In this document: positions 33,594 to 45,554 of the stretch, piece after piece
Layout of the letters: every line of letters begins with the position of its first letter
Numbering within the stretch: position 1 is the stretch's first letter
Assembly (NCBI GenBank): GCA_017479675.1
Contig: JAFVBX010000063.1
Coordinates: 1-49,710 of the forward strand
DNA length: 49,710 nucleotides
Source: Prevotella sp.
GTDB taxonomy: Bacteria > Bacteroidota > Bacteroidia > Bacteroidales > Bacteroidaceae
Direction of reading: 5' to 3'
Program-made: the position numbers and the translations under genes
Notes under the pieces: model-generated
Databases searched by the model: none
What the model was told of the DNA's origin: nothing
The model's input: only the letters and a program-made list of their open reading frames with translations

Positions 33594-34400
33594 ATGTCAA
33601 GAACAAATTTTGATCAGTTGCTTCAGGCAGGATGTCATTTCGGACACCTCAAGCGTAAGTGGAACCCAGCTATGGCTCCTTATATCTTCATGGAGCGCAA
33701 TGGCATTCACATCATCGACCTCAACAAGACCGTAATAAAGGTTGACGAGGCTGCTGAGGCACTGAAGAATATCGCTAAGCAGGGTAAGAAGATCCTGTTC
33801 GTCGCTACTAAAAAACAGGCTAAGGACGTGATTGCCGAGAAGGCACAGAGCGTAAACATGCCTTACGTTAACGAGCGCTGGGCTGGTGGTATGCTCACCA
33901 ACTTCCAGACTATCCGTAAGGCTATCAAGAAAATGGCGAACATCGACAAGCTTACTTCTGACGGCACATACAGCAACCTTTCTAAGCGCGAGCTCCTGCA
34001 GATTTCACGTCAGCGTGCAAAGTTGGAGAAGAACCTCGGTTCTATCGCCGATCTCACACGTCTGCCTTCTGCTATCTTCGTGGTTGACATCGAGAAGGAG
34101 CACATCGCAGTCAAGGAGGCTCACCGTCTCGGCATACCTGTCTTCGGTATCGTTGACACCAACGCTAACCCTAACGCCGTTGACTTCGCTATCCCAGCTA
34201 ACGACGACGCATAGGATTCTGTTGACGTAATACTCTCTGCTTGCTGTGACGCTATCAACGAGGACATCCAGGAGCGTAAGGTAGAGAAGGCTGACGACAA
34301 GGCTGCTGCACAGCAGGAGGACAAGCCAAAAGCAAAGGCAAAAGTTGCTGAGGCACCTGCTGAGGAGGCAACAGAAGAGGCTGCACCTGCTGCTGAGTAA
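33594..34400 (+). CDS. rpsB: 30S ribosomal protein S2, reading frame interrupted by an in-frame TAG
   Basis: Essential small-subunit protein. The first 206 codons (33594-34211) are a typical S2: NFDQLLQAGCHFGHLKRKWNP, VDEAAEALKNIAKQGKKILFVATK, NERWAGGMLTNFQTI, GIPVFGIVDTNANP and AIPANDD. Codon 207 (34212-34214) is TAG. The same frame then continues for 61 further codons to a TAA at 34398, beginning DSVDVILSACCDAINEDIQER, which is the expected C-terminal helix, then the acidic Ala/Glu-rich tail usual in Bacteroidetes. So the full-length gene is 268 codons with one internal amber codon. As read, S2 would be truncated just before its last conserved helix. This could be a sequencing error, a real mutation or readthrough. 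Confidence 0.9.
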
Positions 34401-36226: not shown

Positions 36227-39200
36227 GTGTATCGACTACGCATACATATTATAATAATGATGCTGCTGGTGGCTGTCATGTCATCAGCACAGCGTGACAT
36301 GGCTGTTACCGCCACTGCCGACACCTATGCCTCTACATCCGTACTCAGTAGCGGCAAATGGGCAAAGATACGTGTGCCGTCTTCCGGCATCTACCGCCTC
36401 ACTACCAACGTCATCCGCCGTGCCGGCTTCAGCGACATGAGCAAGATACGCATCTACGGCTACGGCGGCAACCTTGTGCCAGAGACTCTCACACAGTCAT
36501 GGCTCGCCGCTCACGACGACCTGCCAGAGGTGCCCACCGTCACCATCGACGGTGAGAAGTATTTCTATGCCTACGGTCCCATATCATGGACTGACAAGAC
36601 AACAACCACACGCACGCGAAATCCTTACTCCGACTACGGATACTACCTTATCACCGAGAGCAACGACAGCGGCGAGGAAACCACTGAGGAGGCTCTACTC
36701 GCCCAGGTGTCTGCCAGCAACGACACACACCACTATCTCTATGAGGTTGACGACTTCGCATGGGTGGAGACAGGCAGAAAACTCGTCAATGCACAAACCA
36801 TCACCACAAGTTCGCCAAGGAGTTACACCGTAACCATACCTGCCAACAGCACCGAGGCAGAAGTGGCTGTAAACCTTACCGCCAACGTAGCCAGCAGCGC
36901 ACAGGTCACCACCATCGACGAGGAGCAGTCATACACCTATTCCTTCGCCGGTATGTCGTCCACCTACGAACGTGTACGCGACTTCGGAACCATCTTTACT
37001 TTCGACGCCACCCAACTTGCCCAATGTGAGAAAGACGCTTCAGGCAACTACCTGTTGCCCGTCACCGTAGCATGTACCTCCGGCGGTCCGCTGCGTCTCG
37101 ACTACATTTCTGCATCCTTCGACGGCTCCGCCGAGATTGCGTCACTCAATGCTGCCAGCTATCCTGCGGCGGAATATGTACATAACATAACCAACCAAAA
37201 CCACCATGCCGATGCCTCTGCCGACATGATTATCATCATACCCACCTCGCAGAAGTGGTACAGTCAGGCTAAGCGCCTCGGCGAGCTCCATGTCAAGGAA
37301 GAGGCTTCCTTCGGCAACACCTTCACATACAATATTGTGCCTGCCGACGAGCTCTACAACGAATTCTCAAGTGGCACGCCCGATGTTTCGGCTTACCGCC
37401 GCTACCTCAAGATGTTCTACGACCGTGCCGGCGGCTCGTCTGCCTCCATGCCACAGTCCGTCTTGCTCTTTGGCGGCTGTCTGTGGGACAACCGTCTCAA
37501 CACCCTGCCAAACTACTCCGCCGACGACCTCTTGCTCATCTACGAGACAGAGGAGTCGGAGACCACCACGGCATCGTCAGGCATAGACGACTTCATCACC
37601 ATCCTTGCCGACGGACAGACGGTCAACATTGGCAATGCCTCCGCATCCCTCCGCTTCAATATGGGTGTAGGACGTCTCTGCGTCACCTCCCTTGCCGAAG
37701 CCACCCAGATGGTGGACAAGATAGAGCGCTATATGCAGCAGCGTGCCTCCGGTCCCTGGACCACTACCCTCGCCTACGTGGGCGATGATGACAGCTCTAC
37801 GGGCAGCAGCCACATGAGAGCCATCGACGCCAATGCCGACAATATCATCAGCAAGGAGATGGGCTTCGACGTCCGCAAGGTGATGCTCGACGCCTACGAG
37901 CGTATCTCCACCTCCACAGGCTTCCGCTATCCTACAGTAAATGCCGAGCTCCTCCGTTACCTTTCTACCGACGGAGCCTTGGTTATCAACTACGGCGGTC
38001 ATGCCTCACCCGTCCAACTGTCACACGAGAACATCCTCACTCTCAGCGACTTCAAAGGACTCACAGGCACCCGTTATCCTATTTTCTTTACCGCAGCATG
38101 CGAGACGATGCCCTTTGACCAAACGGCAGAGAGCATCGGCACCGCCGCCATGCTCAACAGCAACGGCGGCACCATAGCCTTCATCGGTACCCTGCGCACC
38201 GTATATGCCAGCCACAACGAGGCTCTCGACTACTCTTTCATGGACTACCTCCTCACCTCCGACTACAATGGCGTGCCCGTCACCATAGGCGAGGCTTTGC
38301 GACTGGCAAAGAACCAGGTAGTGATGAACGGTCGCGACCGCACCCTCAACAAACACCAGTACCACCTCTTCGGCGACCCTGCGCTGCGCCCTGCCGTTCC
38401 GCGTTACCGCCTTGTCATTGACAATATCAACGTCAACGATGCTGCCGACAGCGGCGAAGACAGCTATGTAGAGGCAAAAGCCAACGCCGTAGTCAACGTG
38501 AAAGGTCACGTCGAGACCTTCGACGGCAAGCCTCTCACCGACTACAACGGCTCTGTCAACGTGGTAGTGAAAGACGCACTCGAGTACGTCACCACACGCA
38601 ATAACGACGGAGAGTCACAATTTACCTACTCCGACCGTCTCAGCACCCTGTACAAAGGCTCTACCACAGCCAGCGAGGGAACCTTCGAGACAACATTCCG
38701 AGTAGGCAGCGACATTATCGACAACGGCGGCGAAGGCCTCATCACCCTCTATGCACACGACACTAACAACGGCACCTCTGCCTTCGGCGAGTCACAAAGC
38801 ATCGTCTTCACAGGCGAGGAAGAAGTGGAGAACGACGGAGAAGGTCCCGACATCTACCTCTACCTTAACACACCGTCGTTCGTCAGCGGCGGCACCGTAG
38901 GCGCCACACCTTACCTCAACGCCACCCTCTACGACCACGACGGACTCGACGTCATGGGCAACACCATAGGTCACAACATAGAACTCACCATCGACGGAGA
39001 GACATCTCTCACCTACAACCTCAACGACTACTTCACCTTTGACGGCGGCAGCTACACCGGCGGCGAAGCCTACTACGTGCTTCCGTCACTCTCAGCAGGC
39101 TACCATACCTTGCGCCTTCGTGCATGGGACATCCTCGGCAACCCGTCGTCAAAGAGCATCAGCTTCAACGTTGATACTGCCCTCAGCCCCAGCGTCGGCG

Positions 39201-39484
39201 ATGTCTTCATATCGCCAAATCCCGTAAGCGGACAGGGTACTTTCTACATTTATCATGACTTCCAGGGCAGCAATGCCGAGATAGACATTGACATCTTCGA
39301 CACCACAGGGCGCCTCGTGCAGACCAACACGTGGCACCAGGCTCTCGGCATCGCCGAAGGCAGGACAGCCCTGACGTGGAACTCATCGTCACTCTCCAAC
39401 GGACTATACCTCTACCGCGTACGCATCAGCTGCGACGGCATCAACTATACCACGAAGACCAAAAAACTTATCGTGGCGCAATAA
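36227..39484 (+). CDS. porU: Type IX secretion system sortase PorU (peptidase family C25)
   Basis: Outer-membrane-associated cysteine protease that removes C-terminal signals of type IX cargo and joins the proteins to anionic LPS. A signal peptide (MYRLRIHIIIMMLLVAVMSSAQ) is followed by a long beta region. The C25 catalytic domain has His in VINYGGHAS and Cys in FFTAACET. The C-terminus is a type IX sorting-like domain (PNPVSGQGTFYIYHDF, then SNGLYLYRVRI), as known for PorU. The length of 1085 is near P. gingivalis PorU. GTG at 36227 is used because a TAA directly precedes it and the basic start (YRLRIH) improves the signal; ATG at 36257 is the alternative. Confidence 0.92.
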   Translation: MYRLRIHIIIMMLLVAVMSSAQRDMAVTATADTYASTSVLSSGKWAKIRVPSSGIYRLTTNVIRRAGFSDMSKIRIYGYGGNLVPETLTQSWLAAHDDLPEVPTVTIDGEKYFYAYGPISWTDKTTTTRTRNPYSDYGYYLITESNDSGEETTEEALLAQVSASNDTHHYLYEVDDFAWVETGRKLVNAQTITTSSPRSYTVTIPANSTEAEVAVNLTANVASSAQVTTIDEEQSYTYSFAGMSSTYERVRDFGTIFTFDATQLAQCEKDASGNYLLPVTVACTSGGPLRLDYISASFDGSAEIASLNAASYPAAEYVHNITNQNHHADASADMIIIIPTSQKWYSQAKRLGELHVKEEASFGNTFTYNIVPADELYNEFSSGTPDVSAYRRYLKMFYDRAGGSSASMPQSVLLFGGCLWDNRLNTLPNYSADDLLLIYETEESETTTASSGIDDFITILADGQTVNIGNASASLRFNMGVGRLCVTSLAEATQMVDKIERYMQQRASGPWTTTLAYVGDDDSSTGSSHMRAIDANADNIISKEMGFDVRKVMLDAYERISTSTGFRYPTVNAELLRYLSTDGALVINYGGHASPVQLSHENILTLSDFKGLTGTRYPIFFTAACETMPFDQTAESIGTAAMLNSNGGTIAFIGTLRTVYASHNEALDYSFMDYLLTSDYNGVPVTIGEALRLAKNQVVMNGRDRTLNKHQYHLFGDPALRPAVPRYRLVIDNINVNDAADSGEDSYVEAKANAVVNVKGHVETFDGKPLTDYNGSVNVVVKDALEYVTTRNNDGESQFTYSDRLSTLYKGSTTASEGTFETTFRVGSDIIDNGGEGLITLYAHDTNNGTSAFGESQSIVFTGEEEVENDGEGPDIYLYLNTPSFVSGGTVGATPYLNATLYDHDGLDVMGNTIGHNIELTIDGETSLTYNLNDYFTFDGGSYTGGEAYYVLPSLSAGYHTLRLRAWDILGNPSSKSISFNVDTALSPSVGDVFISPNPVSGQGTFYIYHDFQGSNAEIDIDIFDTTGRLVQTNTWHQALGIAEGRTALTWNSSSLSNGLYLYRVRISCDGINYTTKTKKLIVAQ

Positions 39485-42341: not shown

Positions 42342-42581
42342 CAGAAACTTTTCCAAACACGACGGATTTTTTCTCCTTTTTTATTTTGCAAAAAGAAAAA
42401 TATATGGGGATTTGGGTGACAAAGTGATTTTTCGTAACGGCATTTCCTTGCGATTTTTGCAAGCAAAGTCGGATGGGCGATCAAATTCGCGATTCTCACG
42501 TATTTTTAGCACTGTGCTGACAATCAAGCTGTTGTGTTTTTAAGAGTTTCATTTCCAACAGAAAAAGCACGGAAAAGGGGT

Positions 42582-42711
42582 GGAAAAGCTATGCTTTTGG
42601 GTAGGAAAAGCTATGCTTCTGCCTTGTAATAGCTATGCTTTTAGGTGATAAAAGCATAGCTTCCGCGCGTGGAAGCTAAGTTTCCGCACGTAGAAGCATA
42701 GCTTCTGCGGC
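42582..42711. repeat. Six-unit 21-22-bp tandem array with internal orientation switch
   Basis: Units start near 42582, 42604, 42626, 42648, 42670 and 42691. The first three contain AGCTATGCTT and the later ones AGCATAGCTT, its reverse complement, or AGCTAAGTTT. The later units also match the array at 420-503 read in reverse (CTTAGCTTCCACG). The rest of the 628-base gap 42326-42953 holds AT-rich sequence and the ddh promoter. Confidence 0.82.
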
Positions 42712-42881
42712 TTTTTGCTTGGAAAACCGCCTTCGTTGCTCTCTATTTTGAGTTTTTTGCTTGCACTTTTTGAAATGACGTTTTGCCATGAAATCTGCCG
42801 TTCGGGTGACACTCTGACTTTTCCGAATCATTTCTTCTTGTCTTAAAAAATGCTCCACTCCTATAAAAAAGTGACGAAATG

Positions 42882-43900: not shown

Positions 43901-43930
43901 AAAAAGGCAGCCAATCGGCTGCCTTTTTTT
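43901..43930. terminator. Bidirectional terminator between ddh and the HerA-like gene
   Basis: AAAAAGGCAGCC (43901-43912) pairs perfectly with GGCTGCCTTTTT (43917-43928) around a 4-base loop. A/T runs on both sides suit termination of both convergent genes. Confidence 0.9.
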
Positions 43931-45554
43931 ATATCTTCAAGTTACCCAATATATCTCGCGACAACTCGCGGGTGATGGTGCGAGTGGCGGCGCTTGTGGC
44001 GTTCTTCACCACCTTTTCCTTGGTTGAGGTGCGCGACTTTGTCGTCTTACCCGAAATCTTGTTGCTCACGTAGGTGCCGAGGATGGCGGCAAAGGTGGAG
44101 GTGACGGCTGTCATGATGGCTTTGAGCACCTTACTCATTATGCCAGGCTTCTTGGTACCCCTCTTCGTCGTACCAGTGTCTTCATCGTCCTCTTTTGAAG
44201 ATTTCTTCTTGCTCTTTGTCGTGGTTTCCTCTTCGTCTTCGTTCCCGTTCACGTTCCCGTTCACGTTAAGCAGCTCCTCGTATGCACTCTGACGGTCTTT
44301 CAGCGTGTCGTACTTGCCGTAGATAAGGCTCTGACGGATTATGTCGAGGCGCTGTCCCTCGGTTATGGCGCCAATCTGCGAGAGTGGGAAGAGTATCTTA
44401 GCACGTTCCACTACGGCAGGCGCGCCCTTCTCGTCGAGGAAGCTAACGAGGGCTTCACCCGTCTCAAGGTTCATTATCGCCTCGTCTGTCTTGAAGTCAG
44501 GGTTAGGGCGGAAGGTGTCAGCGGCAGTCTTCACCGCCTTCTGGTCTTTCGGCGTGTAGGCACGGAGGGCGTGCTGCACGCGGTTACCCAGCTGTCCGAG
44601 GATGTTCTCTGGTATGTCCGTAGGGCTCTGGGTGATGAAGTATATACCCACGCCCTTTGAGCGAATGAGGCGGATAACCTGTTCTATCTTGTCGAGCAGC
44701 GCCTTGCTGGTGCCTTCGAAGAGCATGTGAGCCTCATCGAAGAAGAACACGAGCTTGGGTTTGTCCATGTCGCCAACCTCTGGCAACGTAGAGTACAGCT
44801 CGCTCAACAGCCACAGGAGGAAGGTGGAGTACAGCTTAGGCTGCATCATCAGTTTGTCGGCAGCGAGGACGTTCATCACGCCCTTGCCCTGCTCCGTCTG
44901 CATAAGGTCGTAGATGTCGAAGGATGGCTCACCGAAGAACTTGTCTGCGCCTTGGTTCTCCAACTGCAACAGGGCGCGCTGTATGGCTCCAACGGAGGCT
45001 GAAGACACGTTGCCGTACTTGGTGGTATATTCCTTGGCGTGCTATGAAACGTAGTCGAGCATGGCGCGGAGATCCTTCAGGTCGAGCAACAGCATGTTGG
45101 GGTTCTCGCGTGCAAGGTCGTCGGCAATGCGGAACACTATGTTGAGCACGCCGTCCTGCGTCTCATTAAGTCCCATGAGGCGCGAGAGCAACTGCGGTCC
45201 CATCTGCGAGATAGTGGCGCGCATGGGGTGTCCCTGCTCGCCATATACATCGAAGAACCTGACGGGACAGGGCTGGAATTCTGGGTTCTGGATGCCAAAC
45301 TCTGGCATCCTTTTCTCTATGAAACCACTCATCTTGCCAGCCTGCGATATGCCACTGAGGTCGCCCTTCATGTGTGCCATGAAGCAGGGCACGCCTGCCT
45401 GGCAGAAAGATTCAGCCATCACTTGCAGCGACACCGTCTTACCCGTACCCGTAGCACCTGCTATCAGTCCGTGGCGGTTAGCCATCTTACCTACTATGCT
45501 CAAAGGTCCGTTGGCGCAATGAGCTATGTAAAGTCCTCTTTCCTTGTCGTACAT
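43929..45554 (-). CDS. HerA-like (DUF853/YjgR-type) ATPase, reading frame interrupted by an in-frame TAG
   Basis: HerA/FtsK-superfamily ATPase of the DUF853 type (E. coli YjgR). The first part has Walker [13 protein letters not shown] (about residues 34-45). Codon 171 (45044-45042) is TAG in a context reading LDYVS, stop, [13 protein letters not shown], and the same frame continues to 43929. The second part has Walker [31 protein letters not shown] and [14 protein letters not shown], the usual family order. Without the TAG the protein is 541 residues. A low-complexity linker [14 protein letters not shown] near residue 430 is encoded by 12-bp repeats at 44241-44267. The Lys-rich C-terminal part and a weakly hydrophobic segment ([12 protein letters not shown]) follow. 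The TAG may be an error, a mutation or readthrough. Confidence 0.88.

Follow-up and report, generated by a model that had tools for sequence, protein, structure and literature searches.

A premature TAG in the rpsB gene of a Prevotella-related draft genome, most likely a base error of the assembly

In-frame TAG codons are a known trait of the crAss-like and Lak phages of gut Bacteroidales, in which UAG is read as glutamine (code 15), and the same trait is seen in the rpsB gene described here. Compared with these phages, as far as the available parts of the accounts on them go, the present case is located in a host chromosome with few such TAG codons per Mb, in which TAG is still in use as a terminator, RF1 is encoded, and no CUA tRNA was found among 31 tRNAs. 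In nonsense-suppressor strains (supE-like), essential genes would remain readable despite a TAG. The draft genome considered here differs from such strains in that no suppressor was found among its 31 tRNAs and in that three of its premature stops are TAA. Base errors in short-read metagenome assemblies are the third situation of relevance. The premature stops reported below resemble them in being isolated substitutions, mostly transversions where inferable, which are scattered over contigs, and the draft itself does so in showing no reported frameshift pair and exact 141-base overlaps between contig ends. Literature searches on rpsB nonsense, Prevotella suppressor tRNA and code reassignment revealed no described case of such kind, and those on metagenome premature stops and assembly base errors gave no paper describing the pattern of this draft. 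According to the accessible portion of a screen for code changes (PMC8629427; Shulgina and Eddy, 2021), the stop codon reassigned in all code changes then known in bacteria was UGA, the in-frame stops of pseudogenes are mostly single-nucleotide transitions, and pseudogenes and contamination led to false inferences in the screen.

The window, i.e. the whole stretch of 49,710 nucleotides that was analysed, corresponds to the complete contig C60 of G000, a draft genome near Prevotella. This draft comprises 1,781,001 bases in 117 contigs, with a completeness of about 80% and a contamination of 1.39. The open reading frame of rpsB starts at position 33594 of the window. Codons 1 to 206 (33594–34211, plus strand) encode the core of the ribosomal protein S2 (Pfam PF00318, Ribosomal_S2, 292 bits), codons 9–206 being fitted to positions 1–198 of the 216 of the profile. 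They are directly followed by an in-frame TAG as codon 207 (34212–34214, plus strand), where relatives display Lys, Thr, Ser or Asn. Past the TAG, the frame remains open for 61 codons (34215–34397) until a TAA at 34398–34400. This remainder (34215–34400, plus strand) corresponds to the C-terminal region and acidic tail of the protein, as recognised by alignment to the S2 C-termini of relatives, and the read-through product would count 268 amino acids. S2 chains from solved ribosomes align across the site of codon 207. A preliminary description of the window had claimed that a TAG lies in frame within rpsB behind an S2 core which is intact up to codon 206, and that the 61 codons downstream still encode the end of S2; both claims were confirmed.

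The rpsB gene is present as a single copy in the draft genome, and its neighbours rplM (L13), rpsI (S9) and tsf (EF-Ts) are all open frames with their own Pfam match. Across L13, S9, S2 and EF-Ts, the sole other radical departure noticed is an Asp at codon 224 of rpsB (34263–34265, plus strand), downstream of the TAG, a position at which 112 of 113 rows from related genomes have Gly (a few genomes being represented twice). Two further features of the window were recorded elsewhere on the contig. The region 36227–39481 encodes a Peptidase C25 protein (gingipain-type family) with a Por secretion tail, which is far less conserved among relatives than the products of neighbouring genes. A stretch of about 400 bp (42393–42802) is 88% like part of contig C69, which is itself 87% like part of C44, and represents a dispersed repeat.

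The best named matches to S2 were obtained with Prevotella and Prevotellaceae assemblies, several of them of ruminant origin. Comparison of codon 207 with related genomes, a check already proposed in the preliminary description, was done on 109 rpsB loci, a set in which at least one assembly was counted twice and for which L117 was missed by the motif used. All 108 readable loci showed a sense codon, namely AAG (61), AAA (8) or codons for Thr (25), Ser (8) and Asn (6), and none showed a stop. Lysine encoded by AAG is found in the three closest relatives, and a single base change from AAG to TAG would explain codon 207 of rpsB. When 200 genomes of the genus were considered, 182 (G000 included) gave an rpsB match, and among the matches listed a stop inside the match occurred in G000 (TAG), G021 (TAA) and G030 (TAA). 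The TAA of G021 and G030 were rejected as internal stops, as they are the ordinary ends of these genes. Among the relatives read, the TAG is private to the G000 assembly.

The earlier account of premature stops in the window was right on rpsB and missed a second one on the minus strand, a TAG at 45042–45044 in a gene for a HerA-like ATPase. It was revealed by comparison with G008 and G181, which both have AAG at this position; in 30 relatives the residue is Lys (16), Gln (13) or Arg (1). The first part of the gene (45045–45554, minus strand, 170 codons) matches positions 9–159 of the Pfam HerA_C profile, and the remainder (43929–45041, minus strand, 370 codons and the stop) matches positions 163–486. 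Codon 61 (45372–45374, minus strand) encodes His where Asp is found in 30 of 30 relatives. The gene is present in 50 of the 120 genomes searched, G000 included.

Premature stops, meaning stops flanked on either side by in-frame codons that look coding, were then considered in 80 stretches of the draft genome together with the window (1,111,832 bases or 1.11 Mb, 62% of the assembly). Starts of next genes, short tails and shadow frames were discarded from the candidates by eye. This concerned 39 of 44 rows when the open reading frames of G008 were compared to G000 and 15 of 15 rows in the reverse comparison (antisense shadow frames), as well as 16 of 25 rows in G000 and 9 of 9 rows in G008 in a further stop scan (next-gene starts, tails and shadow frames). 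Rows of the other scans were removed on the same grounds. The stops in secY and in the mutase gene stem from separate scans and are both absent from that 25-row scan. Eleven premature stops were left, of which eight are TAG, three are TAA and none is TGA. The TAG codons are located in rpsB, the HerA-like gene, leuS (L243), secY (L244), leuA (L303), dapL (L290), and the genes for an RND-type permease (L304) and the small subunit of methylmalonyl-CoA mutase (L369). The TAA codons were found in a GH2 gene (L163), a pectate-lyase-like gene (L298) and the gene for the CCA tRNA nucleotidyltransferase (L384). In secY, as in the HerA-like gene, the stop splits adjoining parts of one profile (SecY 1–262 and 264–413; HerA_C 9–159 and 163–486). 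Five other genes (leuS, leuA, RND-type permease, GH2 and CCA enzyme) have two pieces that each match a part of the family expected, though in different models. Most of the gene pieces flanking premature stops fall below the NCBIfam whole-protein cut-offs. The long piece alone of dapL was scanned, and the mutase small subunit was named from its orthologue in G008. The pectate-lyase-like gene is the weakest of the eleven cases, because a match was obtained for its second piece alone, the first half having none in Pfam. Among the affected genes, rpsB, secY and leuS are essential in other bacteria.

In relatives no such stop was recognised, the sequence covered being 520 kb (G008), 77 kb (G001), 40 kb (G181) and 14 kb (G134). 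Under equal rates, the absence of stops in about 651 kb of relatives against 11 in 1,112 kb of G000 has a P value of 0.006. Without the window, which was chosen for its stop, 9 stops in 1,062 kb are left and P is about 0.013 (hand calculation). The G000 assembly therefore stands out from these relatives. Where G000 and G008 have territory in common, five stops of G000 (rpsB, HerA-like, leuS, mutase and CCA enzyme) face none in G008. No frameshift pair between these two genomes was reported in either direction, shadow frames being discarded by eye. Sense codons are present in the relatives read at the positions of the rpsB, HerA-like, secY, leuS and dapL stops.

The composition of the stops was compared with codon usage, according to which TAG represents 55–58% of the single-step changes that create a stop. 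The eight TAG among eleven stops (P 0.18–0.25) are thus unremarkable, and so is the absence of TGA, which errors alone would produce with a P value of about 0.1. The source codon could be deduced from relatives for eight stops, with TCG assumed in the case of leuS. The other three genes (leuA, RND-type permease and pectate-lyase-like) were without usable orthologue. Six of the eight changes are transversions, that of secY is a transition and that of the HerA-like gene could be either. The source residue is Lys for rpsB, dapL and the HerA-like gene (AAG in two copies), Gln for secY (27 of 27), Tyr for GH2 (19 of 19 matches) and the mutase (G008), and Glu for the CCA enzyme (three matches). At the leuS stop, Ser is found in the two nearest of 29 relatives and Thr in the others. 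A single in-frame meaning of the stops is not evident.

A second dapL sequence was identified in the same bin, with C27 (L290):6248–7208 and C29 (L292):10604–11566 representing one locus on two contig ends. The overlap extends over 963 bp with 96.9% identity. The codon which is TAG in C27 is AAG in C29, and AAG (10) or AAA (3) in 13 of 13 relatives. At the TAG and just upstream of it, C27 displays five transversions crowded into some 40 bp, which turn L to H, L to M, N to I, A to G and K to stop, and G008 and G001 side with C29 at all five, as judged by eye. Between offsets 505 (the TAG) and 822, the two copies are set apart by 11 transversions and 2 transitions, and between offsets 140 and 434 by 3 transversions and 12 transitions. 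The other duplicated locus, C20 (L255):1–1321 and C39 (L300):393–1713 (1321 bp, 96.7% identity), shows 10 transversions and 34 transitions. With a boundary that was chosen post hoc, the Fisher P value for offsets 505–822 is 0.0018 against offsets 140–434 and 0.0001 against C20/C39. The differences between C20 and C39 look like ordinary strain variation, whereas the TAG-bearing stretch of dapL looks like noise, strain variation seen alone consisting mostly of transitions. Over all differing columns of dapL, the majority of relatives agrees with C29 in 14 cases and with C27 in 11, a further 8 being tied, and the pair is therefore regarded as a combination of strain variation and presumed error. 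Contradiction by a second sampling was seen for dapL in this bin, in which rpsB occurs only once.

Exact overlaps of 141 bases between contig ends were detected in four pairs (L172/L377, L242/L259, L251/L378 and L307/L374), and the ends of L256 and L257 overlap over a similar length with 98.7% identity. The exact overlaps point to an assembly of the de Bruijn type at k = 141 and to short reads. With a probability of roughly 0.86, the TAG of rpsB would be a consensus base error in a short-read metagenome draft, a reading which is supported directly at dapL and inferred for rpsB. At codon 207, the consensus would have received an incorrect base, or one that stems from a faulty or minority read, presumably by the same kind of error as at the other stops. 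The real rpsB of the cell would most likely have a sense codon at this position, probably for Lys. While the preliminary description had left open readthrough or suppression, a tolerated truncation and a sequence error, the last of these has much more support than the others, since stops of this kind occur throughout the draft, several of them in genes which are essential elsewhere, and since the one in dapL is contradicted by a second copy. The kinds of stop follow codon opportunity and the spectrum of changes is unlike natural variation, on small numbers, with the post hoc boundary in dapL and with a test over several genes that reached only P 0.087.

Private changes at invariant sites showed no excess in G000 in the rpsB region, the secY contig and leuS. 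In the rpsB region, 1 of 843 sites was private to G000, this being the TAG, while 30 genomes gave 2.0 on average. When 110 genomes were used, the values were 0 of 871 sites against 0.29. The corresponding values are 1 of 1009 against 4.1 for the secY contig and 1 of 810 against 1.9 for leuS. Eleven nonsense changes translate into about 0.28 substitutions per kb (nonsense share calculated by hand), and the power of the test is low, since only about one or two changes are expected at this estimated error rate. Transversions make up 9 of 12 private changes in G000 (three of these nine are premature stops) and 326 of 663 among the relatives. The difference has the direction expected of errors, with P 0.087, and the GH2 set yielded 0 sites. 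Branch counts of nonsynonymous and synonymous changes (129/213 for the window and 124/307 for G134) lean towards more nonsynonymous change on the window branch, a comparison which is confounded by fast genes.

A nonsense suppressor tRNA (CUA, or UUA reading both UAG and UAA) with its gene outside the recovered sequence would make the interrupted genes readable, and is considered very unlikely. The location of stops in rpsB, secY and leuS, the eight TAG among eleven stops without any TGA, and the higher number of premature stops in G000 than in its relatives would agree with it. The draft lacks about 20% of the genome, and two tRNAs of G008, tRNA-Lys(CTT) and tRNA-Gln(CTG), are absent from the recovered part of G000, which leaves room for a suppressor in the unrecovered fifth. 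The search of G000 with tRNA-Lys(CTT) of G008 gave 12 matches, eight of them with 76–83% identity to other tRNAs and four short ones. A tRNA with CUA anticodon, proposed earlier as something to look for, was not found: none of the 31 tRNA genes detected in the about 80% complete draft has a CUA, UUA or UCA anticodon and thus none reads a stop codon. RF1 is intact, with a score above the cut-off and no internal stop. A cut-short RF2 was rejected as well, the TAA in the RF2 match being its ordinary end. Next to an intact tRNA-Glu(CTC) gene, a second one was observed at L054 (C49):438–510, which has altered conserved positions, is the one tRNA gene of the 31 not called by ARAGORN and is either a decaying copy or the site of more base errors.

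The use of TAG as terminator is also normal. It ends 10 of 39 picked open reading frames of the window (two of these being the premature stops) and 44 of 244 in the first 358 kb of G000, while the relatives show 11 of 67 (G008, 120 kb), 5 of 44 (G001), 10 of 34 (G181) and 1 of 9 (G134). Together with the intact RF1 and the negative search for a CUA tRNA in the draft, these counts uphold the earlier argument that TAG termination in the window speaks against a general reassignment. Backup stops are not enriched after TAG: one follows within ten codons in 14 of 44 cases, compared with 71 of 148 cases for TAA. From the signs expected of UAG reassignment, the 1.11 Mb showed no excess of TAG beyond codon usage (8 TAG, 3 TAA and 0 TGA), TAG was not avoided as terminator and RF1 was neither lost nor changed, and the stops are not shared across the clade, the relatives having sense codons. 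A suppressor of TAG would be insufficient, because three premature stops are TAA, and a suppressor of both TAA and TAG would also act on the normal terminators of most genes, as 192 of 244 picked open reading frames end with TAA or TAG. The sense-codon twin of the dapL TAG, the predominance of transversions among the inferable changes and the mixture of Lys, Ser, Gln, Tyr and Glu as source residues argue against suppression too. A Lys-inserting suppressor had been considered, both TAG codons of the window corresponding to Lys in the nearest relatives in the same CA-A-AG context, and was dropped because Gln (secY), Ser (leuS), Tyr (mutase and GH2) and Glu (CCA enzyme) turned up. Slightly less probable still is a low-frequency decoding of UAG, perhaps UAR, as sense in an uncultured Prevotella-type bacterium which would have an undiscovered suppressor tRNA and keep RF1.

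Just as improbable is a real and recent nonsense mutation by which an S2 protein without C-terminal region and acidic tail would be tolerated. One base change would be enough for it, and the Gly224Asp exchange sits downstream of the TAG as it would under relaxed selection, but one departure is no trend. S2 chains from solved ribosomes align over the region behind the TAG, the relatives read have retained this region, and truncations of SecY and LeuS would need to be tolerated too. Programmed or regulated readthrough, with which the coding frame downstream of the TAG would agree, is the least probable, as a stop at codon 207 is conserved at none of the 108 loci read out of 109 and, among the matches listed for 200 genomes of the genus, G000 alone has an internal rpsB stop.

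If they were true, in-frame UAG codons in essential genes of a host chromosome would offer an insight, rarely obtained, into a code change of a cell, and the stops in rpsB, secY and leuS would represent an early stage of it in a cellular genome. The TAG of rpsB is most likely not real as a biological feature, and as the case stands G000 is one draft genome able to yield false recoding signals. Scanning of the remaining assembly combined with the comparison of twin contig ends can provide a read-free test of recoding claims.
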